Part shown: positions 19,498-34,822 of the stretch, one piece after another
Numbering within the stretch: the stretch's first letter is position 1
Layout: each line of letters starts with the position of its first letter
Assembly (NCBI GenBank): GCA_003161615.1
Contig: PMOB01000010.1
Span: forward strand, 62,001-126,000
From: Actinomycetota bacterium
GTDB taxonomy: Bacteria; Actinomycetota; Thermoleophilia; Gaiellales; Gaiellaceae
Reading direction: 5' to 3'
DNA: 64,000 nucleotides
Notes under the pieces: generated by a model
What the model was told of the DNA's origin: nothing
What the model saw: only the letters and a program-made list of their open reading frames with translations
Databases searched by the model: none
Made by a program: the position numbers and the translations under genes

Positions 19498-20388
19498 ATG
19501 ACCCCTTATGCGGCTGTCATCGTCGGCGGGCTCGTCGACGCGGCCGTCCTCGCGGTGGCAGCCGTGGGCTTCTCGCTCCAGTTCAGTGTCACCAACTACG
19601 TGAACTTTGCTTATGGCCAGCTGATCACGCTCGGCGCCTTTATGGCGTTTGTAGTTGACGCCCACCTCAAGGTCGGCATCTGGGTTTCCTTTCTCGTTGC
19701 CGGCGTGGCGGTAGCGCTATTGGCCTACGTAATGGGCCAATGGGTGTACGCCCCGTTCTATCGCCGGAGACCCCAGGTCCTCTACATCCTCGTGGTTAGC
19801 TTCGCAGTCGCTCTCGTATTGAGCAGCGTCTACCTCATCATCTGGCAATCGAATACCTACGAACTGCAGTACTTCAGCAACACGGCGGTGTATAGGACCG
19901 GGCCGTTCATTTGGGCTGCCGACGAACTTGTCGATATCGGCGGCGCCGCTCTCATACTCGTGCTTCTCTACCTAGGGCTGCGATTCACAAAGCTCGGCAA
20001 GAGCATGCGTGCCGTGGCTGACAATCAATCGCTCGCAGCAGTGGCTGGTCTCAACAGCCGACGGATTGTCGGTTACGCATGGCTGATCAGCGGCTTCCTC
20101 GCCGGCTTGGCAGGCGTCGTCGAAGCAGACCTTCTGCATGCCTTCGATGTGACGCTCGGCAGCACTTTTCTGTTCTTGATGATCACTGCCGTGTTGGTCG
20201 CCGGGATCGGTCGTCCTTACGCCGCGGTTATCGGAGCGCTGCTCATCGCATTTGCGGGTCAAATATCGGTGTATGTGATCGGAGCGGCGTATGCGCCGGT
20301 GGGCGCTTTCGCAACGCTGCTCGTGATTCTGCTCGTCAGGCCCCAGGGCATCCTTGGTGGAGGGCGGACGACGCTTCACAATGCCTAG
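19498..20388 (+). CDS. Branched-chain amino-acid-type ABC transporter permease (LivH-like)
   Basis: A 296-residue integral membrane protein with about eight helices, starting at ATG 19498. It has the family segments FSLQFSVTNYVNFAYGQLITLGAF, KLGKSMRAVADNQSLAAVAGLNSRRI (the cytoplasmic EAA-like loop that contacts the ATPase) and a C-terminal VLLVRPQGILGG. LivH-type permeases form the inner-membrane channel with LivM. It is the first gene of a four-gene importer operon. In this catabolic context the solute is more likely an organic acid or amide than a branched-chain amino acid. Confidence 0.93.
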   Translation: MTPYAAVIVGGLVDAAVLAVAAVGFSLQFSVTNYVNFAYGQLITLGAFMAFVVDAHLKVGIWVSFLVAGVAVALLAYVMGQWVYAPFYRRRPQVLYILVVSFAVALVLSSVYLIIWQSNTYELQYFSNTAVYRTGPFIWAADELVDIGGAALILVLLYLGLRFTKLGKSMRAVADNQSLAAVAGLNSRRIVGYAWLISGFLAGLAGVVEADLLHAFDVTLGSTFLFLMITAVLVAGIGRPYAAVIGALLIAFAGQISVYVIGAAYAPVGAFATLLVILLVRPQGILGGGRTTLHNA

Positions 20389-20412
20389 TCAGCAAGTCAG
20401 AGCGGAGCGCCT

Positions 20413-22269
20413 GTGACGCCGACCGAGCTATACCTGGTCACGCTAGGCGTGTTCGCTGCGGTTACCGCTATCCAAGCACTCGGATTCAATCTGCAGTTCG
20501 GATATGCGGGGGTCGTGAACATAGCGTTCGTCGTATTCGTCGCTATCGGCGCGTACACGACTGGAATCGCCGAGCTCCATCGGCCTTCGCGAGGGACAGT
20601 GACCACCTACATTGGGGGCTTCGGCTGGAGCTTCTTCCCGTCGCTGGCCTTCGGCGTCGTAACCACGATGGCATGTGGCGGAGTAATTGGTCTCGTGCTG
20701 TTTCGACGATTGCGCCACGACTACCTAGCGCTTGGGCTACTCGCTATTTCACAAGGCTTGGTGATCCTGGTCACTGATGATGTGGGGCTATTTAACGGCC
20801 AGTCGGGCGTGGCGAGCGTGCCGGGGCCGTCGGGCGGTCTAGTCATCACCGGTCGAGAACAGCTCGGGTTCCTCGGCATTTCAGCTGCGGCGCTCGTGAT
20901 CGTCTATGCCTTTCTATCCAGGCTGACGAATTCGCCTTTCGGACGGACAGTGCGCGCAGCCCGCGAGGATGCGGATGCACTGACGGCCATCGGAAAGAAC
21001 GCAGACCATTTCCGATTGATCGCCTTCGTCATCGGATGTGGAATAGCCGGTCTTTCTGGCGGCTTGTTCGTGACGTATGTCGGAGGCTGGAATCCGAGTT
21101 CCTGGCAACTTACTGAGACTCTGATCCTCTTCTGCGCAGTGATCGTGGGTGGACGCGCGCGGCACATAGGTGCTGTGACCGGCGCCATCGTGCTCGTCGT
21201 GATTACGCAGGCTACGACCTTTATTCCGGGGTTCGTCTCGCCGCAGTACTTGCCGAACGTTGAAACGATGTGTACGGGACTTCTAATCTTGGTATTCCTT
21301 TGGTGGCGCCCCGAAGGTATTTTCCCCGAGAAGAGGCAGAGCATCCGGCTCGACTCCACGGCCGGCGCCGTGCTCGGACTGCTGTCCACCCGTCCGAGTG
21401 TGCAGCGAGAAGGAGCGGCCACTCCCAGGCCGGAACTGAGCCTTAGCTCAACCCGTACCGGCCGGCCGGATGCGGCCCGGCGCAGCCACGCAGACGTCGC
21501 GCTTGAAGTCGAAGACCTGTCGTGTTCATACGGCGGAGTACAGGCTGTCCGTGGAGTTAGCCTGCAGATCCCTCATGGGCGATTCGTCGGACTGATCGGC
21601 CCCAACGGCGCGGGAAAGAGCACTGTGATCGAATGCCTTTCCGGATTCAATGCGTCATATAGAGGCACGGTCAAACTGTTCGGGACCGATATCTCGCGCA
21701 AAGCGCCGCACAAGATCGCCGGGCTGGGGCTCGTGAGAGGGTTCCAACAGGCCAGGGTGTTCGGCCAGATGACCAGCCTTGACAACATCAGCGTCGCCGA
21801 GAGAAGACAAAACGGCGAATCCGCTCTGAAGGCCCTCATCGGTGGATGGCGAGGCGCTGAGGCGCTGCGATATGAACGGAGCGAGGAATTCCTCTCGCTC
21901 TTCGAGATGACAGACGTAAAAGACAACTACGGCCGCGAGCTCTCGGGCGGGCAGCAAAGGCTTCTGGAGCTCGCGCGCTTGTTGAGTTCTGACCCGGATG
22001 TTCTTCTCCTTGACGAGCCGTTCGTGGGCGTCAGCCCCGCGAACCGCGAGAAGTTGTGCCAAATGCTCATGCATATTTGCCATGAGCGGAACGTCACCAT
22101 TCTTATGGTTGAGCACCGGCTCGAGCTCGTTGAGCGGCTTTGTGAGGTCGTGGTCGTAATGGCGGAGGGAAAGGTCATTGCGCAAGGACCGATGAGCGAG
22201 GTGCGTACAGACTCGATGGTCTTGGACGCTTACCTTGGGAGAGCCCCAGTGGAGGCGCTCCATGACTAG
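20413..22269 (+). CDS. Fused ABC permease and ATPase (LivM-LivG type)
   Basis: 618 residues from GTG. Residues 1-310 are a LivM-type permease (FNLQFGYAGVVNIAFVVFVAIGAY; VRAAREDADALTAIGKNADHFRL; WWRPEGIFPEKR). A linker of about 50 residues follows, then a complete LivG-type ATPase: Walker A GPNGAGKST (about 398), LSGGQQRLLELARLL (signature), Walker B VLLLDEPFVGVSP and the switch His in VEHRLELV. LivM and LivG are usually separate; this natural fusion fixes their stoichiometry. The 3' end overlaps the LivF gene by eight bases. Together with the neighbours it makes a complete high-affinity importer. Confidence 0.94.
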   Translation: MTPTELYLVTLGVFAAVTAIQALGFNLQFGYAGVVNIAFVVFVAIGAYTTGIAELHRPSRGTVTTYIGGFGWSFFPSLAFGVVTTMACGGVIGLVLFRRLRHDYLALGLLAISQGLVILVTDDVGLFNGQSGVASVPGPSGGLVITGREQLGFLGISAAALVIVYAFLSRLTNSPFGRTVRAAREDADALTAIGKNADHFRLIAFVIGCGIAGLSGGLFVTYVGGWNPSSWQLTETLILFCAVIVGGRARHIGAVTGAIVLVVITQATTFIPGFVSPQYLPNVETMCTGLLILVFLWWRPEGIFPEKRQSIRLDSTAGAVLGLLSTRPSVQREGAATPRPELSLSSTRTGRPDAARRSHADVALEVEDLSCSYGGVQAVRGVSLQIPHGRFVGLIGPNGAGKSTVIECLSGFNASYRGTVKLFGTDISRKAPHKIAGLGLVRGFQQARVFGQMTSLDNISVAERRQNGESALKALIGGWRGAEALRYERSEEFLSLFEMTDVKDNYGRELSGGQQRLLELARLLSSDPDVLLLDEPFVGVSPANREKLCQMLMHICHERNVTILMVEHRLELVERLCEVVVVMAEGKVIAQGPMSEVRTDSMVLDAYLGRAPVEALHD

Positions 22270-23104
22270 TAGCTCCATGAGCAGCGCGGTTCCTGCGGCG
22301 GCTGCTGAGCGCGAGTTGTCACTCGTGAACATCACCGCTGGCTACGGGACGCATGCCGTCGTCTTTGACGTCAACTTGAACTTCGCGCCGGGCACGATTT
22401 CGTGTCTTATCGGCCCGAACGGAGCCGGCAAATCGACCGTGCTCAAGGCGATGTTTGGCGACGCTCGCATGTTTGCCGGCGAGGTCTTTCTTGGCGACGA
22501 GGAAGTCCGGCCGACCGGCAGAGACCTCGTTCCTCGTGGCGTGAGCTATGTGCCACAGCAAGCGAACGTGTTCCCTTCGCTAACCGTCGCAGAGAACTTG
22601 GAGATCGGAGCTTATGTCCGGCAAGGCCATGGCGGCGTCGACCACGTTTTGGCGCTCTTCCCGGAGTTGCGCGATCTCCTTCGTCGGCACGCCAGCAAGC
22701 TCAGTGGTGGGCAGCAGCGAATGGTGGCCATCGGTCGTGCACTTATGTCCGGCCCCGACTTCCTACTGCTGGACGAAGCGACGAGCGGATTGGCTCCAGC
22801 CGTCGCTCAAACTCTCTGGCGGCGTCTGAGTCAACTCGCGGCAACTGGGGTCGGGGTCATAGCTGTGGAGCAGAACGTTGACACGGCGCTTGAGCTCGCG
22901 TCTGAGGTCAGCATCCTGGTGAGCGGGAGTATCGCCTTTTCAGGCGGCGTCGCCGACGTGACCCCGGAACTCCTAGAAGACGCGTTCCTCGGTAGCGCCC
23001 CCCGCGTGGAGCCTGAAGCGGAGAGCTCTGACGCGGATGCCGCGAGGAACGGCGAACTCGGCGTCCCCGAGAACACCAATGACGGAGGTGACCGTCCTGC
23101 CTGA
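22262..23104 (+). CDS. ABC transporter ATP-binding protein (LivF-like)
   Basis: 280 residues from ATG 22262, inside the end of the preceding gene; a TTG at 22235 is less likely. Walker A is GPNGAGKST, the signature KLSGGQQRMVAIGRALM, Walker B FLLLDEATSGLAP and the D-loop/switch region VEQNVDTALELA. The C-terminal 40 residues are acidic and extra to the usual LivF. It pairs with the fused LivM-LivG ATPase to drive import. The gene overlap indicates translational coupling. Confidence 0.94.
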   Translation: MTSSSMSSAVPAAAAERELSLVNITAGYGTHAVVFDVNLNFAPGTISCLIGPNGAGKSTVLKAMFGDARMFAGEVFLGDEEVRPTGRDLVPRGVSYVPQQANVFPSLTVAENLEIGAYVRQGHGGVDHVLALFPELRDLLRRHASKLSGGQQRMVAIGRALMSGPDFLLLDEATSGLAPAVAQTLWRRLSQLAATGVGVIAVEQNVDTALELASEVSILVSGSIAFSGGVADVTPELLEDAFLGSAPRVEPEAESSDADAARNGELGVPENTNDGGDRPA

Positions 23105-23160
23105 CGTGGCTCGCACCATTACACGAATCGAATGGAAGCTAGGAGGAGGTGTAGGAACAC

Positions 23161-24459
23161 GTGAGTCCAGTGGCTAACAACCATAGGCACAAGCACGGAC
23201 GTGGCGTTTTCAGCATGTGCGTCGCGGCGATCGCATGTATAGGCGTATTCCTAGTCGTCGGTAACGCTGCAGGGTCGACGACCAGTGCGAAGCACGCTGC
23301 TGCTAAGGGGGCGATCAACGTCGGATTCTTCGGGCCTCTCTCGGGCGCATACGTGGGAGCCGGCGATCAGCTCTTGTCGGGCGCCCGATTGGCGGCCGAT
23401 CTCATCGACGCGAGCGGCGGGGTAATGGGTCACGGCGTAAACGTCATCCCTGGCGACGACGGGGGAGACGCGACAGACGCCGTGCCTCTCCTTCGCAAGA
23501 TGCTTGCCGTCGACCACCTATCGGCGATGATGGGTGGAATCACCTTCGATTATGGAACGGCATTGCCGATTCTGAACCGGGCGAAGATGGTCGACTTCAT
23601 GCACGTCGGCGATCCGGCGCTCGATCACAAACTGCTCAAGTACGTCTTCAGCACCGCTCCATCGGACTCCTTGACGGGTGCTGCGATGGCGTACTGGGCG
23701 AACGTCAAGCATTACAAGAAGATCGCCCTGGTCTTCGACACAGGGCAGGGCTCTCAGACGCTGTTGCCGGAATTGAAGCATGCGGCAAAAGTGCTCGGAA
23801 TGAAGATCGTAGTTAGTGTGACTCTGCCGTTGGGAACGGTTTCATATGAGTCTGAGGCGCAACAGGTCGTTAGCGCAAAGCCGCAGGCGATTCTGACACA
23901 GGTCGAAACCCCACAAGCAGCCGGTCCCTTCTTCACCCAGCTGCAGAGGGACGGCGGGGGTTCAATTCCCCTGGTCGGGAGCGACGCCATGAGTAACCCG
24001 AGCATCGTGAGTGCGATGGGCGCAAGTGAAGCCGCGAAACTCGAGTCCGTTACCGCCGCTGTCGGTTCGGGGAAGAGCTTCCAGACCTACAAGAAGGCGT
24101 ACGAGAAATACATCGGCGGTACGCTCAGTTACCTCGCCGGCTACTACTACGATGGCACTAACGTCGCTGCCCTAGCAATGCTCGCGGCGCATTCCACGAA
24201 GCCGTCGGTATACGTCAAATACATCTCGAAAGTGACTACACCTGGTAAAGGCGTGACCGTCGTGCACAGTTTTGCTCGCGGCGCTGCGCTTCTCAGGAAA
24301 GGTAAGAGGATCAAGTACTTTGGAGTAGGCACTCCGATGACGTTCAACAAGTACAACCGCGTCACGGGATCGTACGACGTTGTCCAGCTGTCAACTAGCG
24401 GCACGACGACAACGGTCGGAACTATCAGCGGTACAAGCCTGCAGCCTTTGCTCGGCTGA
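23161..24459 (+). CDS. ABC transporter substrate-binding protein (LivK / Peripla_BP_6 type)
   Basis: 432 residues from GTG with the ribosome site ggaggtg. The N-terminal signal segment (SMCVAAIACIGVFLVVGNAAG) has no lipobox. The mature part starts INVGFFGPLSGAYVGAGDQ, the family's first strand, and continues with GDDGGDATDAVPLLRKML and later GYYYDGTNVAALAML. This family binds amino acids, amides, or aromatic and aliphatic acids outside the membrane. The solute is unknown. It is the last gene of the importer and is followed by a strong terminator. Confidence 0.93.
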   Translation: MSPVANNHRHKHGRGVFSMCVAAIACIGVFLVVGNAAGSTTSAKHAAAKGAINVGFFGPLSGAYVGAGDQLLSGARLAADLIDASGGVMGHGVNVIPGDDGGDATDAVPLLRKMLAVDHLSAMMGGITFDYGTALPILNRAKMVDFMHVGDPALDHKLLKYVFSTAPSDSLTGAAMAYWANVKHYKKIALVFDTGQGSQTLLPELKHAAKVLGMKIVVSVTLPLGTVSYESEAQQVVSAKPQAILTQVETPQAAGPFFTQLQRDGGGSIPLVGSDAMSNPSIVSAMGASEAAKLESVTAAVGSGKSFQTYKKAYEKYIGGTLSYLAGYYYDGTNVAALAMLAAHSTKPSVYVKYISKVTTPGKGVTVVHSFARGAALLRKGKRIKYFGVGTPMTFNKYNRVTGSYDVVQLSTSGTTTTVGTISGTSLQPLLG

Positions 24460-25396: not shown

Positions 25397-26509
25397 GTGA
25401 GCGTCACCGAAGAAAGCCCGAGTCAGATTCCTGGGCCGGACAAGCGCGAGAGGCGGTCTCACAGGATCGCCGTGATGGGTGGGGAGGGCGTAGGCCCGGA
25501 GTTGGTCGCACATGGGATGCGTGTACTCGAGCGGGCGGCCGACCTCTTTGAATTCGACTATGAGGTCGTGGACTATCCACACAGATCGTCCCATTATGAG
25601 GCCACCGGAGAACTGCTGACCCCCGAGTCGATTGAGGCGTTCCGGCAACTCGATGCAGTCTTCTACGGCGCTCACGGAGACCCGCTACCGCCGGGACGCG
25701 GAACGTCGCTCATTGTTCGGCTAGGTCAGGCTCTCGATCTTGGAGTAGGTGTCCGGCCCGCCACGCTGTACTCGGGGCATTTAAGTCCGTTGAAAGGCCG
25801 AGCCGATGGCGACATCGACATGGTGATTGTTCGTGACACTACCGAGGACTGCTTTGCCATTCCGGGTGGCCTAATGTCCGCCGATACCCCGCACGAGGTC
25901 GCGGTGGGACTGTTGATGTACACGCGCCGCTCCGTCGAGCGCGTTGTGCGCTACGCATTCGAGCTGTCACAGACTCGCGGGAAGAGACTGACCGTAGTGT
26001 CGCAGGCCAATTCACTATTGAGCCACACCATTTGGCCAAGAGTCGTGCACGAGCTAAGCGTCGAGTACCCGGATGTCGCCGTGGATGAGATGTACCCGGA
26101 CAACGCCGCTGGGACGTTGGTGCTGCGACCGGAGCACTTCGATGTGATCGTGACCACCTTCTGGTTGGGCGGGATTCTCACCAACGCAATGGCCGCAGTG
26201 GTTGGTGGCATCGGCGTATGCGCCGATGTACGAATCAGCCCCGACGCCCGCGTCGGCATCTTCCAATCGGCCCACGGCGCTGCGCAGAAGTACGAAGGGC
26301 TAGATCGAGTGTCGCCCATGGCCACCCTCCGAGCGCTCGCTCTGATGCTCACGCACATTGGGCAGCCGGAAGCCGGACACCAACTCGAGCAGGCGATTCA
26401 CACGGCAATCAGCAGCGGGCGGGTGCCTGACGTCAGCACGCGCAGTCCGGTTGGCACGAAGGAGGCGACCGACATCGTCATCGATGAGCTACAGCGGGGC
26501 AAGGTCTAG
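25397..26509 (+). CDS. Isocitrate/isopropylmalate dehydrogenase family protein lacking catalytic residues
   Basis: 370 residues from GTG. The fold is unmistakable: IAVMGGEGVGPELVAHGMRVL at the N-terminus, VGVRPA, YPDNAAG with D235, and a C-terminal GIFQSAHGAAQKYEG. However, the usual catalytic Lys (KxN segment) is Gln203 in VVSQANSLL. The two metal-binding aspartates of the GDILSD motif are Gly259 and Asn263 (LGGILTN). Members with Lys and three Asp oxidise and decarboxylate 2-hydroxyacids with NAD and Mg. Losing three of them argues against that reaction. It heads the cluster with the selenoprotein, 40 bases upstream, and may act on the same substrate in another way. Confidence 0.88.
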   Translation: MSVTEESPSQIPGPDKRERRSHRIAVMGGEGVGPELVAHGMRVLERAADLFEFDYEVVDYPHRSSHYEATGELLTPESIEAFRQLDAVFYGAHGDPLPPGRGTSLIVRLGQALDLGVGVRPATLYSGHLSPLKGRADGDIDMVIVRDTTEDCFAIPGGLMSADTPHEVAVGLLMYTRRSVERVVRYAFELSQTRGKRLTVVSQANSLLSHTIWPRVVHELSVEYPDVAVDEMYPDNAAGTLVLRPEHFDVIVTTFWLGGILTNAMAAVVGGIGVCADVRISPDARVGIFQSAHGAAQKYEGLDRVSPMATLRALALMLTHIGQPEAGHQLEQAIHTAISSGRVPDVSTRSPVGTKEATDIVIDELQRGKV

Positions 26510-26550
26510 GCAGACGAAGCGCAAGGCGTCAACAAGGAAGGAGAGCATCA

Positions 26551-27105
26551 GTGCGTGTCTACGAGCCCACGGTCGAATTCGAGCGCGAACCGACCTCTGA
26601 GAGGGCCCATCAAGCTATCGAGGGCGGCTCGCTGGGCATTTTGAGCAATGGCTGGAGAAGCTTCCACTTCCTTGCCGACAGATGGGAAGAACTCGCCACC
26701 GGTCCAGCCTTCGGCGTGGCGGAGGTCATCAACCGTAAGCATCACGATCCGGCGGGGCCTGCTCCCGAGGAGCACATCGCTGATGTGATCGTGACTGGAG
26801 GCGTCCTTTCGGGCGTCGGCAACTGAGGGGGTTGCACGGCGTGGAGTTGCCACGCCACGTTGCAAGTGGCCGATGCGGGCCTGCCCGTCGTCTTGATCGT
26901 GACCGAACGCTTCGAAAGCCTCGGCAGGTCGATTCTCAAGAGCAAGGGGAGAGGCGATGTCCCGGTCTACGTGCTTCCGTCAGACATCGAGACGCGCTCG
27001 GAAGATGAGCTCCGTGAACTGGCGGCGGAGACGCTGCCGGAGCTAATCGAATTGCTCGGAAGTGCCCAGCTCGATCTACCAATAGGAGAGGCGCTGAGTG
27101 ACTGA
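26551..27105 (+). CDS. UGSC-family selenoprotein (Sec92 encoded by in-frame TGA)
   Basis: 184 residues if the TGA at 26824-26826 is read as selenocysteine. The two apparent reading frames on either side are in the same frame and together give one protein: GTG start at 26551 behind aaggaaggag, then residues up to GVGN, Sec92-Gly-Gly-Cys95, then TAWSCHATLQVADAGLPVVL. This matches the UGSC family, whose members carry U/C-G-S/G-C in the context GVGD(U/C)GSCT. A GC-rich hairpin follows the TGA at the distance bacterial SECIS elements need. The reaction of the family is unknown; the U-x-x-C motif suggests redox or nucleophilic chemistry. The stop overlaps the next gene. Confidence 0.87.
26832..26865 (+). 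promoter_or_regulatory. Bacterial SECIS-like hairpin in the selenoprotein mRNA
   Basis: Seven GC-rich pairs, ggcgtgg (26838-26844) with ccacgcc (26850-26856), enclose the loop agttg. Five further pairs, ttgca (26832-26836) with tgcaa (26861-26865), lie below an internal loop. Eighteen bases separate the TGA from the apical loop, and a G is the second loop base; both fit published bacterial SECIS rules for SelB binding. The hairpin also codes for protein, as bacterial SECIS elements do. Confidence 0.85.
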
Positions 27106-28144
27106 AATGCTAACTGCGCGACCGATTGAGATTGATGGCTCCGCGTCCGATGTAAACGACTACTTCGAAGCGCAAGAGTGGACAGACGGCCTTCCGATCA
27201 TTCCTCCGACGGAGGATCTGGTTTCGGCCTTTATCGAAGCGGCGGGGCTTCCGGGCGAGCATCAGGTCGCGCTCGTTCCTCCGCTCGATGGGCGCGCGAC
27301 AGTCGAGAAGATCGCGATCAACGCGGTGATGGCTGGATGCCGCGCGGAGTACATGCCAGTCCTCATCGCAGCCGTCGAAGCAATGTGCGACGAGCGGTTC
27401 AACCTCGGACCCGTGCAAGCCACAACCAATGGAGCCGGCGTCGCCGTAATCATCAATGGACCGGTCCGTCACAGAATCAAACTGAACTGCAGTAGAAACT
27501 GCCTAGGACCCGGCACTCGCGCCAACGCGACGATCGGACGCGCCGTACGCCTGATCATGTTGAACCTCGGAGGCGGACGACCCGAGGTAGTCGACAAGGC
27601 CGTGCTCGGGTTTCCGGGGAAATACACACTCTGCTTCGGTGAGATCGAAGAGGAGAGCCCGTGGGACCCCCTTCACGTCGACCGTGGGTTTGCTCGCGAA
27701 GACAGCGTTGTAACGGTCGTGTCGGTTAACAGCGCTCTGAACATCTTGACGGCCAACCTGTCGGATGCAGAGGACAAGCTCGCATTCCTCGGCGACCCGT
27801 TCAACGTCCGCGGAACTAACAATGTGTGCGTCGGTTCAGGCGAGGTCGTCGTGGTTCTAACTTCGGGAGACGCCCAGGTGCTTGCCGATGCCGGTTTCAG
27901 CAGGGCCGATGTTCAGCGGCATCTCTACATGAACTCGGGCATTCCGGAGGACGAGATACCAGCGAAGCTCGAGCGCCGGGCGCGCATCGCAGCTGTCACG
28001 ACAAACGGGATCGTGCGGCAGGTACGACGGCCGGAGGACATCATGGTCGTCGTTGCAGGTGGCCCGGAGCCGTATCACGCCATGGTCATGCCGACGTTCG
28101 GCCATTCTTGGTCGGCGTCGGCGAAAGTCCGCTCAGGCACCTGA
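27098..28144 (+). CDS. Conserved protein commonly linked to UGSC proteins, function unknown
   Basis: 348 residues from GTG 27098, which overlaps the selenoprotein stop (ATG 27107 is an alternative). Conserved-looking stretches are WTDGLPIIPPTEDLVSAFIEA, ATVEKIAINAVMAGCRAEYMPV, NCSRNCLGPGTRANATIGRA and GFPGKYTLCFGE(I)EEESPWDPLHV. I know this family only as an actinobacterial and chloroflexal protein of unknown function that travels with UGSC-type proteins. Eight-base overlap and same direction imply co-expression, and possibly a complex. Several cysteines (C85, C101, C131, C135) could matter for redox exchange with the selenoprotein. Confidence 0.85.
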   Translation: MTEMLTARPIEIDGSASDVNDYFEAQEWTDGLPIIPPTEDLVSAFIEAAGLPGEHQVALVPPLDGRATVEKIAINAVMAGCRAEYMPVLIAAVEAMCDERFNLGPVQATTNGAGVAVIINGPVRHRIKLNCSRNCLGPGTRANATIGRAVRLIMLNLGGGRPEVVDKAVLGFPGKYTLCFGEIEEESPWDPLHVDRGFAREDSVVTVVSVNSALNILTANLSDAEDKLAFLGDPFNVRGTNNVCVGSGEVVVVLTSGDAQVLADAGFSRADVQRHLYMNSGIPEDEIPAKLERRARIAAVTTNGIVRQVRRPEDIMVVVAGGPEPYHAMVMPTFGHSWSASAKVRSGT

Positions 28145-28204
28145 ACCGAAAATTCGGGCTCTTGCTCTATAGGAGCTCCACGCTAAAGAGACGAGGAAAA
28201 ATAT

Positions 28205-29029
28205 ATGGCTATTCACATCAAGGAAAAGCTGAGCAAGGGAGATGTGATCACCGGGGTCGTGACCTTTTCGCCGTGTGTCGAGATGGTGCAGACGATTGCC
28301 CACGCAGGCTTCGACTTCATCATGATCGACCAGATGTACGGCAGCATCACATGGGAACACGCTGCGAATATGGCGAGGGCGGCACGGCTATCCGGTATTA
28401 CGCCGATCGTTCGCCTTCAGGCAGAGCCGTGGGCAGTGAAGGACAACCAACAGCTCGCCGTTGATACCGGCAAGGCGTTGAGTGTCGGGTTCCAGGGAAT
28501 CAACTTCTCGGTTAGCTCAGCGGATGAGGTACGCCGAGTCGTGGATGTCGCGCTCGGGCACGGTGGCTGGCACAGAGAACTTCAAGTCATCCCGTGGACG
28601 CGTGAGACTTTCCCGCAGTATCTCGAGCAGATCAGAGAGGACACCTTCATCGGCGTAAGCGTCGAGGGGCAGTCGGCCCTTGACGAAATTGAGGAGATCG
28701 CTGCCGTACCGGGTCTCGACTCGATCTCGTGTTCGACTACGGATCTATCGATCACGCTCGGGCACGGCGTCGTCAGTGACAATCCCGACACTTGGGCGCT
28801 TTTCGACAAGCTGCGCGATATCGCCGACAAGAATGGTCTCGTGCTTCGCTCCAACACGGGAATGGGTTACTCGACCTTCCCCGAGATGAAGAGTCGAGCA
28901 AAGGACCTGATCGAGCGAGGCGCCCGTATGATCGTCTTCCAGCACTCCGAACTCCTCCTGCAAATGGCAGGCAAGTACGTCCTTGAGGACTTGCCTGTTG
29001 GGCGCCGTCCAGAGCTGCAGACTGCTTGA
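28205..29029 (+). CDS. HpcH/HpaI-family aldolase
   Basis: 274 residues from ATG. The family features are GVVTFSPCVEMVQTIAHAGFDFIMIDQMYGSITWE, TPIVRLQ, VGFQGINFSV and IGVSVEGQSALDEIEEIAAVPGLDSI, in which acidic residues bind a divalent metal in a TIM barrel. The enzymes split 4-hydroxy-2-oxoacids into pyruvate (or a relative) and an aldehyde. Typical members are 250-270 residues, as here. It follows the selenoprotein pair on the same strand and overlaps the next gene, so a carbon-carbon cleavage step belongs to this pathway. The substrate cannot be read. Confidence 0.9.
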   Translation: MAIHIKEKLSKGDVITGVVTFSPCVEMVQTIAHAGFDFIMIDQMYGSITWEHAANMARAARLSGITPIVRLQAEPWAVKDNQQLAVDTGKALSVGFQGINFSVSSADEVRRVVDVALGHGGWHRELQVIPWTRETFPQYLEQIREDTFIGVSVEGQSALDEIEEIAAVPGLDSISCSTTDLSITLGHGVVSDNPDTWALFDKLRDIADKNGLVLRSNTGMGYSTFPEMKSRAKDLIERGARMIVFQHSELLLQMAGKYVLEDLPVGRRPELQTA

Positions 29030-29064
29030 ACGCATCCGACACGCCGCAGTCGAGCGCCAACGGC

Positions 29065-29985
29065 ATGACCGAAGCCACAACTGTTGACGTCATCGTTGTC
29101 GGTGGCGGCCCAGCCGGCATTCAAGCCGCAATCGAATGCGCTAACCGGGATGCCAGTGTCGTTCTCGTCGAACGCTTCGCTCTCGGAGGCGAGCTGATCA
29201 ACATCGATGCCATGACTGGGGTTCCCGGCCAAGCTGGGATCGCCGGAGCCGAGTACGCCGCGATCCTCTCGGACGCATTGTTCCAGACACCAGTTCGAAT
29301 GGAGCTCGAAGACGTCACAGAAATTGCGCGTGCCGGCACAGGCTGGAAGGTCGGGACCCGCGGTAGCGCCTTCAACGGGAACGCTCTGATCGTGTGTTCG
29401 GGGGCACGGCCTGAGAATCTTCCGGCTCGCGGTGAGGCGGGCATCGACCCCTTCCGTGGTAACGGGATCTCTACATGTGCACCGTGCGATGCGCCTCTCT
29501 ATCGCGCCAAGACGGTCGCCGTAGCCGGCGGTGGAGATACAGGTGTTGAGGCGGCGCTCGCCCTGACTGCCGCCGGCGCACGGGTCGTGCTCTTTGAGAG
29601 AAGCAGTCAGCTCACGGCGCAAGGACCTTTGCTGCGGACTCTTGCGTCAGTCGCAGGAGTCGAAGTGCGCTGTAACACTGCAGTCATCGATGTTGGCGGC
29701 GAAGGGAGTGTCTCTGAGGTGCTCGTTCAAACAATCGATGGCACTCATACCGCTGCCGTGGGCGGTGTAGTTTTGGCCGTGGGCCTCCGGCCGAACTCGG
29801 ATCTGCTCAAAGGTGTCGTTGACCTCGATCAACGAGGTGCGGTGCTGGTCAATGCCTCACTTGCTGCCTCGGAAGCGAACCTCTACGCCGCGGGCGATGT
29901 AAGGAGTGGCTCCAGCTTCCGCTGCGTCGGCGCGCTCGGGGATGGAACGGTCGCAGGCGCCGCTGCTCTTGTCGCCATCTCCTAG
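29065..29985 (+). CDS. FAD-dependent pyridine-nucleotide oxidoreductase, thioredoxin-reductase-like
   Basis: 306 residues from ATG 29065; a TTG at 29026 overlapping the aldolase stop would give 319. The FAD-binding motif VVGGGPAGIQAAIECANR is N-terminal, and GGGDTGVEAALAL is the second dinucleotide fold. STCAPCDAPLY holds C138 and C141, the redox pair of thioredoxin-reductase-type enzymes. LYAAGDV closes the FAD site. In the thioredoxin reductase family NADPH reduces FAD, then the disulfide, then a partner protein. The adjacent selenoprotein with a U-x-x-C motif is an attractive partner, but this is inference. Confidence 0.9.
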   Translation: MTEATTVDVIVVGGGPAGIQAAIECANRDASVVLVERFALGGELINIDAMTGVPGQAGIAGAEYAAILSDALFQTPVRMELEDVTEIARAGTGWKVGTRGSAFNGNALIVCSGARPENLPARGEAGIDPFRGNGISTCAPCDAPLYRAKTVAVAGGGDTGVEAALALTAAGARVVLFERSSQLTAQGPLLRTLASVAGVEVRCNTAVIDVGGEGSVSEVLVQTIDGTHTAAVGGVVLAVGLRPNSDLLKGVVDLDQRGAVLVNASLAASEANLYAAGDVRSGSSFRCVGALGDGTVAGAAALVAIS

Positions 29986-30081
29986 AGAAGGTAGATTAGC
30001 TCCCATGCCATGCAACTCACTCTCAAGGTGTGGGAGGGAGTGTAGACGTCGTCTGACTGCCCCTTCAGCCGGGGCGAACGC

Positions 30082-31347
30082 ATGACGAACTCCTCTAGCG
30101 CGACAACGCCATCGACGGGGCGGCTCGCGGGCCTAACGGTCATCGATCTAACGCAAGTGGTTAGCGGCGCCGTCACAACGATGTTTCTCGCGGACTTCGG
30201 TGCGAACGTAATCAAGATCGAGCCGCCCCAGGGTGACGCTTACCGGATTTCGGGCTATCCGATCGCTGGCGAGGCGGATACGACGAACTTGAACATCTTG
30301 CGCTTCTCCCGTAACAAGCGAAGCGTCGTTCTCGACCTTAAGAACGAAGCCGGTCGCGCTGTGCTGGCCGAGCTCATTTGCCGTGCAGATGTCCTGGTCG
30401 AGAACTTTCGCCCCGGCGTTCTAGGCCGATTCGGATTCGCTCCGGAGGCTCTGAGGAAGCTGAACCCAGCACTCATCTACACGAGCGTAAGCGGGTTTGG
30501 GCACGACGACATCTTTGAGAGTCCCTACCGGGACCGCCCGGCGTACGCGATCATCGTTGAGGCGATGGCAGGGCTTACGCACCTTGCCGGGGACGGAGAC
30601 GGGCCTCCAGTCTGGATGGGGTTTGCGATGGCCGACATCTTCGCTGGTGTTCTCGCCTTCTCCGGAACACTCCTCGAGCTTCTGAATCAGGATCGCCCCG
30701 GCGGCCGCGTCGACATTTCAATGTACGACGGAGCGATCTTCATGAACGAGCTCGCGGTGATCTGCCGAACGGTTCTGGGAGAAGTGATGGGGCGCGGCCA
30801 CTACACCCTGCAGTCGCCCTGGGGGCCATACCCGACATCCGACGGTCACGTCGCAATCGCGCTCATCAACGAGAAGCAGTGGCAGGCGCTGTGCGCCCTC
30901 ATTGGGCGCACCGATCTAGCTGCCGACGAAAGGCTCGCATCCGGTCAGGGGCGATCCGTTCATCATCATGAGCTCGTAGAGCCGGCGATCGGAGAGTGGA
31001 CGAGTGCACGCACCACTGCGGACTGCATGGCGCTCCTGCTTGAGAGCGACATTCCGGCCGGGCCAGTCAATACGGCCGAGGATGTTGTCAACTGTCCGCA
31101 GGTGGCCGCACGGAAGATGCTGATCGATGTCGAGGACGACGTTGTTGGCTCTTTTAAGGTCGTTGGAAATCCGATCGTATTGGGCGAGAGCGCTTCGATT
31201 GGCGGGAGGGTTCCGCGGCTCGGAGAGCACACCTCCGCTGTGCTAGAGGAACTGCTCAGCCTTGATGGTGCGGCGCTTCAATCCTTGCGAGAGCGCGGTG
31301 CTTTCGGTTCCGAGAGCGGCAGGGTCGAGGAACTCACGACGCGTTAG
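30082..31347 (+). CDS. CaiB/BaiF family CoA-transferase
   Basis: 421 residues from ATG. Class III CoA-transferase features are VIDLTQVVSGAVTTMFLADFGANVIKIE, RNKRSVVLDLKNEAGR, ADVLVENFRPGVLGRFG (Asp for the acyl-CoA intermediate lies in the following region) and SGFGHDDIFESPYRDRPAYAIIVEAMAGL. These enzymes move CoA between organic acids, activating a catabolic substrate. It ends the plus-strand catabolic gene series that begins with the isopropylmalate-dehydrogenase-like gene. An IclR regulator is convergent with it. Confidence 0.93.
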   Translation: MTNSSSATTPSTGRLAGLTVIDLTQVVSGAVTTMFLADFGANVIKIEPPQGDAYRISGYPIAGEADTTNLNILRFSRNKRSVVLDLKNEAGRAVLAELICRADVLVENFRPGVLGRFGFAPEALRKLNPALIYTSVSGFGHDDIFESPYRDRPAYAIIVEAMAGLTHLAGDGDGPPVWMGFAMADIFAGVLAFSGTLLELLNQDRPGGRVDISMYDGAIFMNELAVICRTVLGEVMGRGHYTLQSPWGPYPTSDGHVAIALINEKQWQALCALIGRTDLAADERLASGQGRSVHHHELVEPAIGEWTSARTTADCMALLLESDIPAGPVNTAEDVVNCPQVAARKMLIDVEDDVVGSFKVVGNPIVLGESASIGGRVPRLGEHTSAVLEELLSLDGAALQSLRERGAFGSESGRVEELTTR

Positions 31348-31413: not shown

Positions 31414-32196
31414 CTATTGAGCGCTCGCGGCACGGGTCGAAGTCTCTCCGCGCAGGCCCTCGTCTCCGACCTCGAAGCCACCGAGTTGCGCAGCCAAGCT
31501 TGAAGCAGCGTCCCAGAGTGCCGTTAGATGGCTTAGGGCGACCTGTCGAGTAAAGCGATCGCTCGGGCCCGAAACGCTGACCGCAGCAATGGTGATGCCT
31601 CCGACGCAGACGGGCGCGGACAAGCCGGATACCCCTCCTACCCAGTCGTTGACGACGAGGGCATAGCCGTCTTTGCGGATGCGTTCAAGGCGATGGTCAA
31701 GATCGCGACGCTCTGGAACACGCAACTTCGCAGCGTCGATCGCTTCGGCTCGATCGGCTGGGGATACCCCTGCAAGGAGAACCTCCCCGGTCGCTGTTCC
31801 GGGCGCCGGCTGAATCAAGCCGACCGGCACGACTCTTCGCACAGGATGCTGGCTCTCGACGACTGCAATGCACACTCGTGAGACCCCGCGAAGCACGTGT
31901 AGTGAAGACGTCTCGCCCGTGCGATCCCGGAGCGCCGTCAGCAACGGGTGGGCTGCTTCGGCCAGTTTCGGCTGCGCTGCGCCAAACTGCGTGAGCGCGA
32001 ACAGGCGGGGGCCAATGCTGTAGTGCCCAGAGGACGCTGAGCGATGGAGGAGTCCCTCGTCGGCTAGTTGGTGCATGAGCCTGGACACTGTCGACAGCGG
32101 AAGCTCCAACTCCCGTGCAACTTTCACGGCACTCGTCGGGGCTCCATTCGCGGCGACGCTTTCGAGAATCGAAGTCAGTCTCTTGAGTGATTGCAT
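31414..32196 (-). CDS. IclR-family transcriptional regulator
   Basis: 260 residues. The N-terminal winged helix is ILESVAANGAPTSAVKVARELELPLSTVSRLMHQLADEGLL. The C-terminal effector-binding domain runs from about residue 80 to 240 (TGETSSLHVLRG, GVSPADRAEAIDAAK, VNDWVGGVSGLSAPVCVGGITIAAVSVSGPSDRF). IclR proteins control catabolic operons for aromatic or aliphatic acids in response to a metabolite. Its place between the two catabolic gene sets suggests it controls one or both. It is followed downstream by nothing on its strand. Confidence 0.93.
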   Translation of the reverse strand: MQSLKRLTSILESVAANGAPTSAVKVARELELPLSTVSRLMHQLADEGLLHRSASSGHYSIGPRLFALTQFGAAQPKLAEAAHPLLTALRDRTGETSSLHVLRGVSRVCIAVVESQHPVRRVVPVGLIQPAPGTATGEVLLAGVSPADRAEAIDAAKLRVPERRDLDHRLERIRKDGYALVVNDWVGGVSGLSAPVCVGGITIAAVSVSGPSDRFTRQVALSHLTALWDAASSLAAQLGGFEVGDEGLRGETSTRAASAQ

Positions 32197-32301
32197 CCTG
32201 CTCCCGCCGAGTTATCGCATTTTTTGGCGACGCCCTTCAGGGCGACCTTTGACGACCAGGCTGTCGAACACAGCCGTCGACGTCGGGCGACCTTAGCTGG
32301 G

Positions 32302-32811
32302 CTACACCGACCATTCGGTCTCGGTGATCGGAAAGACATTCACAACTTCAGGCGCGTCGCGCTTGAAAACCATGAAGCTGCGAGCAAACTCGATCACGAC
32401 TTCGCGGCGTTGGTTGATTCCTCGCGTCCGGATGGTGACAATCCCGCTAGAGGGCCTGCTCGCTGATTCGCGGACGGCCGTGACTTCGCTCTCCGCCCAG
32501 ATCGTGTCACCGACGAAAACGGGGCGCGGGAGCTTGATATCGCTCCAACCGAGGTTTGCGGCAGCGTTCTCGGAGGTGTCGCGGACAGACAGTCCGACCA
32601 CGAGGCCGAGCGTGAGCGTGGAAACGACGAGCGGCTGTCCGAATTCAGTGCGCCCCGCCCACTCGCGGTTGAAGTGCATCTGGTTGGTGTTCATCGTCAG
32701 CGTCGTGAACCAGACGTTGTCCGCCTCGGTGACGGTGCGACCGATCGCGCTGCGGTACACATCGCCGACAGCGAAGTTCTCGTAGAACCTGCCGCGGTAC
32801 TCGTTGCTCAT
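32302..32811 (-). CDS. MaoC-like acyl-CoA hydratase, candidate itaconyl/mesaconyl-CoA hydratase
   Basis: A 169-residue single hot-dog domain: YRGRFYENFAVGDVYRSAIGRTVTEADNVWFTTLTMNTNQMHFNREWAGRTEFGQPLVVSTLTLGLVVGLS. This contains the MaoC catalytic Asp/His signature (the His in NQMHFN). It adds water across an enoyl-CoA double bond. Its ATG overlaps the CoA-transferase stop by one base. Together with CoA-transferase and CitE-type lyase it matches the itaconate pathway described in Pseudomonas and Yersinia (Ich step), which converts itaconyl-CoA to citramalyl-CoA. Mesaconyl-CoA hydratase is the nearest alternative. Confidence 0.88.
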   Translation of the reverse strand: MSNEYRGRFYENFAVGDVYRSAIGRTVTEADNVWFTTLTMNTNQMHFNREWAGRTEFGQPLVVSTLTLGLVVGLSVRDTSENAAANLGWSDIKLPRPVFVGDTIWAESEVTAVRESASRPSSGIVTIRTRGINQRREVVIEFARSFMVFKRDAPEVVNVFPITETEWSV

Positions 32812-33941
32812 CAGTCCTCCCCGTCGTTGTGCTCGCCGAGCAACGGCGCCCGGACCGGGTCGCGCGTTAATTCGTGACCGAACGGGCTCGCAACCGTGCG
32901 GACGTTGCCGAGCACTGGCTGCATGTACTCGATCAATGACTCGCGGGCGGCGACCTGTTCGTCGTTGAGTGCCGTCTCTATGTCGTTAACCGGTGCGCAG
33001 GGCACTCCCGCTGTATTGAGGGTGCTCACCCAGTCGGCGACGCGGCGCTTGGCGAATGCCCTCTTGAGAAGGGCGACCAACTCGTCGCGGTTTCGGCGTC
33101 GGGCCTCGAAGTTGGAGAAGCGTTCGTCATTGGCCAACCGAGCCTGTCCGAGCGCGTCGCAGAGCTTCGCCCACAACGTCTCCTTGGCGCAGGCGACGAC
33201 GATATGGCCGTCTGCGGCGGCGAACATTTGGAATGGGACAACCGTCTGGTGCGAGGAGTCGGGTACCCGTTGAGCGACCCAGTCGCGCGAAGCGGTCCAG
33301 GTCGCCATGTAAGTGAGCAGGGAGAGCGCCGTTTCGTAAAGCGAAAGGTCGACGTCGCAGCCGACACCGTCTCGCCGGGCACGCCAGACCGCAGCCATTA
33401 GCCCGAGCGCGGCTACGTAGCCGCTAGCGAAGTCAACCAGTGAGAGCCCACTCTTGGTGGGCGGCTGGTCAGGACCGCCGGTGACGCTCATCCATCCGGC
33501 GAGCGCCTGGATCGTCGCGTCGTAAGCGCCCTCGTGCGCACGCGGACCCGTCATACCGAACCCCGAGAGCGAGACACAGACGATCGCGGGATTCACCGGG
33601 GCGAGGTCGGCGTACCGGAGACGCAGCTTGGCTGGCTGGTCACCGCGCAGATTTGAGAAGACTGCGTCAGCGTCGCGGACGAGCTCCTCAAAGACCCGCC
33701 GTCCTGCAGGCACACGGAGGTCAAGGGCAACGCTGCGCTTGCCGCGGTTGAAGCTTTCGAAGAAAAGCGAGCTGCCGTCTTCAGCGTAGGGCGGCACTGA
33801 GCGGCCGACGTCTCCACCCACTGCTGGGTCTTCGATCTTGATCACCTCGGCGCCGAGGTCAGCGAGCTGCATCGTCCCGAACGGGCCGGCGCCGAACTGC
33901 TCAAGCGCAATGATGCGCAAATCGGCGAGCGGCAGCATCAT
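32811..33941 (-). CDS. CaiB/BaiF family CoA-transferase, candidate itaconate/mesaconate CoA-transferase
   Basis: 376 residues. Features are DLRIIALEQFGAGPFGTMQLADLGAEVIKIEDPAVGGDVGR, FFESFNRGKRSVALDLRVPAG, DAVFSNLRGDQPAKLRLRYADL and SGFGMTGPRAHEGAYDATIQALAGWMSVTG, the complete class III fold. It would attach CoA to a dicarboxylate using succinyl-CoA or acetyl-CoA. Gene overlaps with the lyase (four bases) and the hydratase (one base) show one operon. It differs clearly from the other CaiB protein at 30082, so the two probably use different acids. Confidence 0.92.
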   Translation of the reverse strand: MMLPLADLRIIALEQFGAGPFGTMQLADLGAEVIKIEDPAVGGDVGRSVPPYAEDGSSLFFESFNRGKRSVALDLRVPAGRRVFEELVRDADAVFSNLRGDQPAKLRLRYADLAPVNPAIVCVSLSGFGMTGPRAHEGAYDATIQALAGWMSVTGGPDQPPTKSGLSLVDFASGYVAALGLMAAVWRARRDGVGCDVDLSLYETALSLLTYMATWTASRDWVAQRVPDSSHQTVVPFQMFAAADGHIVVACAKETLWAKLCDALGQARLANDERFSNFEARRRNRDELVALLKRAFAKRRVADWVSTLNTAGVPCAPVNDIETALNDEQVAARESLIEYMQPVLGNVRTVASPFGHELTRDPVRAPLLGEHNDGED

Positions 33942-34822
33942 CCTTCTTGCCTTCGGGCCAATAGCGCCTCGGCCAGCTTCCGCGAAGCCTCGTCGATCAT
34001 CATCCCATCGAGGCTGGCCGCACCTGCGCCTCTCGTGTTCGCCTCCTGAAGCGCATCAAGTACCCGCGCGGCTCTTGCCACCTCCTCGGGCGATGGCGCA
34101 AAGACCTCGTTACAGACCCCGACTTGGTCCGGGTGGATGACCCACTTGCCGCCAAAACCGAGCAACTGTGCACGCAAGGCCGACTCGCGGAGTCCGTCGG
34201 CATCCTGCAGCGCGGCGAAGGGTCCGTCGATCGCGTCTAAGCCGTATGCGTGTGCGGCCACGGCGATCCGCGACCGGGCATAGTGCCACTGGTCGCCGGG
34301 ATAGGCAGGATTGATCGCGCCGATGTCCGGCTGCGGAATCCCCAGGGAGGCCGCGTAGTCCGCGGGACCAAAAACGAGCGCTTCGACCCGAGGCGAAGCA
34401 CCAGCGATCCGCTCTACCTCGACCATGCCGCGAGCCGACTCGATCTGTACCTCGAGTCCGATCGACGGGCCGCGGCTATCAAGCAACTCTGCGACCATCG
34501 CGACGTCATCGACGGACTCCACCTTGGGAACCACGATGCAGTCGATCGCTTCTCCCGCAGCCTGAACGACTTGATCGAGGTCGTCCATGAACCACTGAGA
34601 GCGGGGCGCGTTAACTCGGACAGCGATTGTTGGTGCACGCCATTCCCCGGCGAGAACGGCCGTGGCGACGCGCTGCCTTGTCGCATCCGTCTTGTCTGCG
34701 GGGGCGACGGCATCCTCGAGGTCGATCACGATCTCGTCGGCGGGGATTGACCGTGCCTTCTCGAGCATCCGTTCCGACGTTGCCGGCACCGTGAGGCAAG
34801 ATCTGCGTGAGCGTGCAGGCAT
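33938..34822 (-). CDS. CitE-like CoA-ester lyase, candidate citramalyl-CoA lyase
   Basis: 294 residues starting MPARSRRSCLTVPATSERML. CitE-family features are RSCLTVPATSERMLEKARSIPADEIVIDLEDAVAPADK (acidic metal site), VRVNAP, VVPKVESVDDV, GLEVQIESARGMVEVERI and a C-terminal GFGGKWVIHPDQV. Such enzymes split (3S)-citramalyl-CoA, malyl-CoA or beta-methylmalyl-CoA into acetyl-CoA plus an oxoacid. With the upstream and downstream partners it fits the final step of itaconate/mesaconate degradation (pyruvate plus acetyl-CoA). One-base gap to the GntR gene upstream. Confidence 0.91.
   Translation of the reverse strand: MPARSRRSCLTVPATSERMLEKARSIPADEIVIDLEDAVAPADKTDATRQRVATAVLAGEWRAPTIAVRVNAPRSQWFMDDLDQVVQAAGEAIDCIVVPKVESVDDVAMVAELLDSRGPSIGLEVQIESARGMVEVERIAGASPRVEALVFGPADYAASLGIPQPDIGAINPAYPGDQWHYARSRIAVAAHAYGLDAIDGPFAALQDADGLRESALRAQLLGFGGKWVIHPDQVGVCNEVFAPSPEEVARAARVLDALQEANTRGAGAASLDGMMIDEASRKLAEALLARRQEG

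Follow-up and report, generated by a model that had tools for sequence, protein, structure and literature searches.

Organization of the gene cluster

The window, by which we mean the whole 64,000-nucleotide stretch of Actinomycetota DNA analysed here, carries six closely packed genes between positions 25397 and 31347, all on the forward strand and preceded by an ABC importer of the LIV type (Table 1). The UGSC and companion genes overlap by 8 bp, and the HpcH and TrxB-like flavoprotein genes by 4 bp. Within the importer, a permease and an ABC ATPase are joined in a single protein of 618 aa, and the binding protein is encoded at 23161-24459. Open reading frames and family matches bear out the gene set and importer described in the earlier sequence-only reading, which knew of no characterised pathway with this set; we found none either. 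Beside the cluster lies a divergent operon that encodes an IclR regulator, a MaoC hydratase, a class III CoA-transferase and a CitE/RipC-like lyase.

Table 1. Positions of the cluster genes and neighbouring features in the window.
Feature	Position	Strand	Basis or remark
LIV-type ABC importer: permease, permease-ATPase fusion, ATPase, binding protein	19498-24459	+	5' of the six-gene cluster
Permease-ATPase fusion of the importer	20413-22269	+	
IPMDH-like gene	25397-26509	+	PF00180 match, alignments
UGSC selenoprotein gene, GTG start, Sec motif U-G-G-C	26551-27105	+	PF24696, read-through translation, GrdB/PrdB profile homology
In-frame TGA, read as selenocysteine	26824-26826	+	Sec kept at the site in 87/91 relatives (matches listed)
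SECIS-like hairpin, GGCGTGG-AGTTG-CCACGCC	26838-26856	+	not significant alone
Companion gene, partner subunit	27098-28144	+	pairing, fusions; no family match
HpcH/HpaI-type lyase gene	28205-29029	+	PF03328 match, alignment
TrxB-like flavoprotein gene, CAPC; proposed Se-S bridge reductant	29026-29985	+	alignment, recurrent partner
Class III CoA-transferase gene	30082-31347	+	PF02515 match
Divergent operon: IclR regulator, MaoC hydratase, class III CoA-transferase, CitE/RipC-like lyase	31414-34822	-	

Selenocysteine decoding of the UGSC gene

The second gene product had been called a UGSC selenoprotein. It is a member of PF24696 (E 2.1e-28; 100 bits against a gathering cut-off of 25) with an in-frame TGA, and to this extent the name holds; its motif, however, is U-G-G-C and not U-G-S-C, and against NF041046 it scores 59.6 bits, under the equivalog cut-off of 125. 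The genome of the window encodes SelA and SelD (325 bits, cut-off 125), a tRNA-Sec gene was detected, and visual inspection of L001 showed the start of SelB at its end; with this machinery present, recoding of the TGA as Sec is plausible. A perfect 7-bp hairpin begins 11 nt 3' of the UGA, and the single-sequence fold around this codon is not significant (z -0.70). Significance comes only from the comparison of 97 UGSC genes: the mean folding energy of the 45 nt that follow the UGA is -18.4 kcal/mol, against -12.0 for other segments of the same genes, and these folds share a repeated apical GTG/GTA loop. The window gene thus combines an in-frame UGA and a downstream hairpin with a genome that encodes Sec machinery.

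Among the matches listed, 87 of 91 full UGSC proteins have Sec at this position, the others being three Cys forms and a degenerate one; the near-absence of Cys versions fits a reaction step that needs Sec. UGSC proteins are among the commonest selenoproteins of aquatic metagenomes, with 255 Sec sequences in GOS (PMC2398784).

The UGSC protein and its companion as a conserved unit

The companion, which has no match in Pfam, NCBIfam or the PDB, was used to scan a genome collection; at least 575 relatives were found, and the best 80 loci were analysed. These span Chloroflexota, Pseudomonadota, Myxococcota, Rokubacteria, Acidobacteria, Nitrospinota and haloarchaea, among others, and viral contigs yielded no relatives. 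A UGSC gene lies on the same strand within 1.2 kb of 97 of the 104 near-full companions among the matches listed; of the seven listed companions with no UGSC neighbour detected, at least two are at contig ends. In 28 pairs among these matches the two proteins are fused in a single ORF, each with one UGA, placed at the Sec site; natural fusions include L031:9434-11035 and a plasmid-encoded protein of Acidovorax sp. T1. Conserved residues of the companion include DGLP, AGC, NGP and GR. The companion is therefore a true conserved partner of the UGSC protein, as the earlier reading had held. Some genomes contain several divergent pairs, one Chloroflexi MAG accounting for seven of the listed loci. 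A fusion of UGSC with a domain named Unknown_1 was reported in 2008 (PMC2398784), and Unknown_1 is probably the companion.

Several neighbours of the pair or of its relatives deserve record. Both bacteria and haloarchaea encode a DUF6282 protein immediately next to the pair and in the same orientation (L032, L045, L078, L192 and L198); genes for aconitase X and DUF126 adjoin distant UGSC-companion fusion homologues in Vibrio europaeus (L204) and Sporomusa termitida (L197); and one companion with 48% identity to that of the window, at a locus with no UGSC gene detected, adjoins a glycyl-radical enzyme and its activase (L015:10001-14627).

Relationship of the UGSC domain to GrdB and PrdB

The UGSC family was compared with GrdB and with short PrdB-like selenoproteins drawn from the same genomes and their relatives. 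A plain Pfam scan is blind to a relation between UGSC and GrdB, as the model PF07355 ends just before Sec; the window UGSC protein has no PF07355 match. In profile-profile alignment, UGSC scores 95.6% with GrdB (P 4.5e-9) and 88.7% with the PrdB-like proteins (P 2.9e-7), in both cases with the Sec positions aligned. By comparison, 23 unrelated families used as decoys against UGSC reach at most 0.67%, reversed-alignment controls at most 0.24% and 80 block shuffles at most 36.6%. The score stays at 63-82% when the motif is masked, and the stretch after Sec gives 86.7% and 85.1% by itself. The half before Sec gives no homology on its own, so we claim homology for the part from Sec to the C-terminus only; identity between UGSC and GrdB is only about 13%. 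On these profile comparisons, the UGSC domain is distantly homologous to the C-terminal domain that bears Sec in GrdB/PrdB. No solved structure of GrdB or of a PrdB-like protein was found for comparison.

The companion was also considered as a homologue of GrdE, GrdB or PrdB, and this was rejected at about 0.1% or less in profile-profile alignment. GrdB has no match in the window genome, nor has GrdA, for which control genomes likewise gave no match; with neither protein matched in its genome, the window enzyme is not taken for a glycine reductase. The short PrdB-like selenoproteins, with a U-P-x-C motif, form a widespread family of their own (L099-L119, L123 and L166-L177). PF07355 has matches in 26 of 35 genomes that carry UGSC and in 76 of 396 genomes sampled from the phylum of the window, many of these matches being of the short PrdB-like type.

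The 2008 study judged UGSC likely to be thioredoxin-like (PMC2398784). This judgement, together with the UxxC motif and the thioredoxin and redoxin partners encoded nearby, would suit a thiol oxidoreductase active in repair or peroxide defence that has come to lie in a catabolic operon by chance. At the level of sequence profiles a thioredoxin homology was rejected (0.06% against a nine-row thioredoxin profile), and the fixed pairing with a large companion and a context of importers and CoA enzymes speak against a protein of that kind; we consider it rather improbable.

The sequence-only reading had also entertained a dehalogenation-like route. The homology points instead to reductive cleavage of the glycine/proline-reductase type, subject to the distance of the relationship. 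Dehalogenation, or a non-redox lyase or isomerase reaction, would be chemically possible for a Sec nucleophile, and one homologue is carried on a plasmid from linuron-contaminated soil; but no dehalogenation gene occurs in the annotated neighbourhoods examined, the hosts range from haloarchaea to termite-gut Sporomusa, and the recurrent TrxB partner described below points to a redox cycle. Enzymes of these other types seem to us improbable.

A proposed thioredoxin reductase-like redox partner

The flavoprotein of the cluster has FAD and NAD(P) domains and, as the earlier reading had noticed, a CxxC motif; this motif, CAPC, aligns with the CAIC of thioredoxin reductase. The protein's score of 189.8 against TIGR01292 is under the cut-off of 343. 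Of 108 loci among the matches listed, 10 encode a TrxB-like flavoprotein on the same strand and no more than 3 kb away, and at least seven of these proteins have CxxC. The gene order is trxB-trxA-companion-UGSC on an Arthrobacter plasmid, where trxA and the companion gene overlap by 4 bp, companion-UGSC-trxB in Roseovarius and UGSC-companion-flavoprotein in Haloterrigena; a TrxB-like protein is also a neighbour of the pair in Variovorax, and the companion of an actinobacterial relative carries a fused redoxin domain. The suggestion that the flavoprotein recycles the U-x-x-C motif gains support from this recurrence, on the same strand, in bacteria and archaea, and the path of the electrons can be put forward as a putative one.

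The remaining enzymes and the origin of the cluster

The first protein of the cluster aligns well along its length with solved isopropylmalate dehydrogenases (IPMDHs). The alignment agrees with the earlier claim that it is without catalytic residues: the catalytic Lys is replaced by Gln, neither metal Asp residue is kept (GD to GG and TD to TN), nor is the Tyr. Here and in the lyase, the roles of catalytic and metal residues are those presumed for the families in general. An IPMDH-like protein is found near the pair in two of about 108 loci among the matches listed. Among the listed matches, the only such locus besides the window belongs to a betaproteobacterium (L073); there too the gene lies directly upstream of the pair on the same strand, and the Lys and Asp residues are missing from its product at the same positions. 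Two such cases in distant lineages suggest that the dead IPMDH-like protein has a real non-catalytic role. IPMDH relatives in a same-family and a same-order genome (L146 and L147) were set aside as ordinary dehydrogenases with catalytic residues kept. In the HpcH/HpaI-type lyase the metal Glu and Asp are kept and the His is Tyr by alignment. This type of HpcH protein occurs near the pair in the window only, among about 108 listed loci, while a class III CoA-transferase is near the pair in 14 and a CitE-type lyase in four of these.

The sequence-only reading suggested that the six genes may form one route. Comparison of gene order across about 108 UGSC-companion loci does not uphold this as a conserved pathway: among the matches listed, only the window combines all the parts, and the full set is repeated nowhere else. 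The pair could then be a real enzyme within a horizontally gained island, with the IPMDH-like protein, the HpcH lyase and the CoA-transferase belonging to other pathways. The companion is absent from 15 genomes of the same genus, most of them incomplete, and in a quick tree it groups with Chloroflexota and Betaproteobacteria, away from the copies of its own order; horizontal gain of the pair is likely, though not proved. The overlapping genes on one strand, the dead IPMDH at the same position in the betaproteobacterium, and the haloarchaea, which too have a CoA-transferase and a lyase beside the pair or the companion, speak against unrelated neighbours, and we hold such an assembly to be unlikely, if deserving of real weight.

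On plasmid pFER4 of Paracoccus ferrooxidans (L205), a segment of about 15 kb holds selA, a UGSC-companion pair and selB; the annotation apparently breaks the UGSC gene of this plasmid, probably at the Sec UGA, into two short hypothetical ORFs. The UGSC pair may help to explain the presence of Sec machinery on some mobile elements. Companions from public MAGs titled Bordetella parapertussis (L030, L037, L058 and L063) group with environmental betaproteobacterial MAGs, and the species label looks doubtful.

Importers and the nature of the substrate

No neighbours of the pair are commoner than importer binding proteins: among the matches listed, 39 of 108 loci encode a TctC protein no more than 3 kb away. 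The enrichment relative to genes farther off is modest (67/224 against 23/125, matches listed), since the host genomes are rich in TctC. At one locus a complete LIV-type importer sits between two pairs (L078). In Halorientalis and Haladaptatus, genes for a CoA-transferase, a CoA ester lyase, the companion and a TRAP binding protein follow one another, Halorientalis having UGSC as well. In the closest relative among the matches listed (L014) a methylaspartate mutase pair is placed divergently. The divergent operon of the window looks like one for itaconate/mesaconate-type degradation, although its MaoC hydratase, close to RipB, scores 174 bits against NF038241, under the cut-off of 340. Given this neighbouring gene context, a branched dicarboxylic acid is no more than a reasonable guess for the substrate.

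Model for the activity of the UGSC-companion enzyme

Taken together, these data suggest a model in which UGSC and its companion would form one two-domain selenoenzyme, with Sec carried by the UGSC domain and the companion standing in for GrdE/PrdA and probably forming the substrate site. An organic acid would enter the cell, in the case of the window through the LIV-type ABC system, and would be attacked by Sec, leading to reductive cleavage of a carbon-heteroatom bond. The Cys of the U-x-x-C motif would then resolve the adduct to give a Se-S bridge, which NADPH may re-reduce by way of the TrxB-like flavoprotein, alone or together with thioredoxin, while the product could be processed by the CoA-transferase and the HpcH lyase. 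The dead IPMDH-like protein may serve as a non-catalytic ligand-binding or scaffold subunit.

Reductive cleavage is supported by the profile homology with GrdB/PrdB, the near-obligate pairing, the operons with TrxB, the importer neighbours and the dead IPMDH of L073; it is weakened by the identity of about 13%, the lack of homology before Sec, the absence of a GrdA- or GrdE-like partner and the lack of conservation of the six-gene set. We put at about even the chances that UGSC and its companion form an enzyme that depends on Sec for the reductive cleavage of an imported organic acid and is recycled by thioredoxin. Slightly more tentatively, the pair may represent a third branch of the glycine/proline-reductase superfamily, combining Sec-dependent reductive cleavage and thioredoxin recycling with a new substrate domain, and serving the catabolism of imported organic acids of many types in many bacterial phyla and haloarchaea.

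Placement of UGSC in this superfamily, with a fixed partner and thioredoxin-type recycling, makes a testable enzyme class of what had been an orphan. It would also suggest a part in general organic-acid catabolism for Sec-based reductive cleavage, which is known mainly from anaerobes that ferment amino acids.

Comparison with known systems

The divergent operon shares with the RipA-RipB-RipC system of itaconate degradation the same three enzyme classes (32302-34822); it differs in that its hydratase is under the NCBIfam cut-off and that it includes no selenoenzyme, so that any connection with the UGSC operon is conjectural. The first gene of the cluster shares the fold family of the isopropylmalate/tartrate dehydrogenases (PF00180), whereas its product, without the catalytic Lys and metal Asp residues, would not be a working dehydrogenase of that type. 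With the UGSC family (PF24696, NF041046; PMC2398784) the window protein has in common the sequence family, the place of Sec and the partner domain, but it carries UGGC, is split from its partner into two overlapping genes and is under the NF041046 cut-off; the literature we found gives the family neither a function nor homology to GrdB/PrdB. With respect to GrdB/PrdB (PF07355, TIGR04483), UGSC has no PF07355 match, the companion replaces GrdE/PrdA and the genome has no GrdA match, as was also the case in the controls, while the Sec-bearing C-terminal domain is homologous by profile and recycling of the thioredoxin type is likely common to both.
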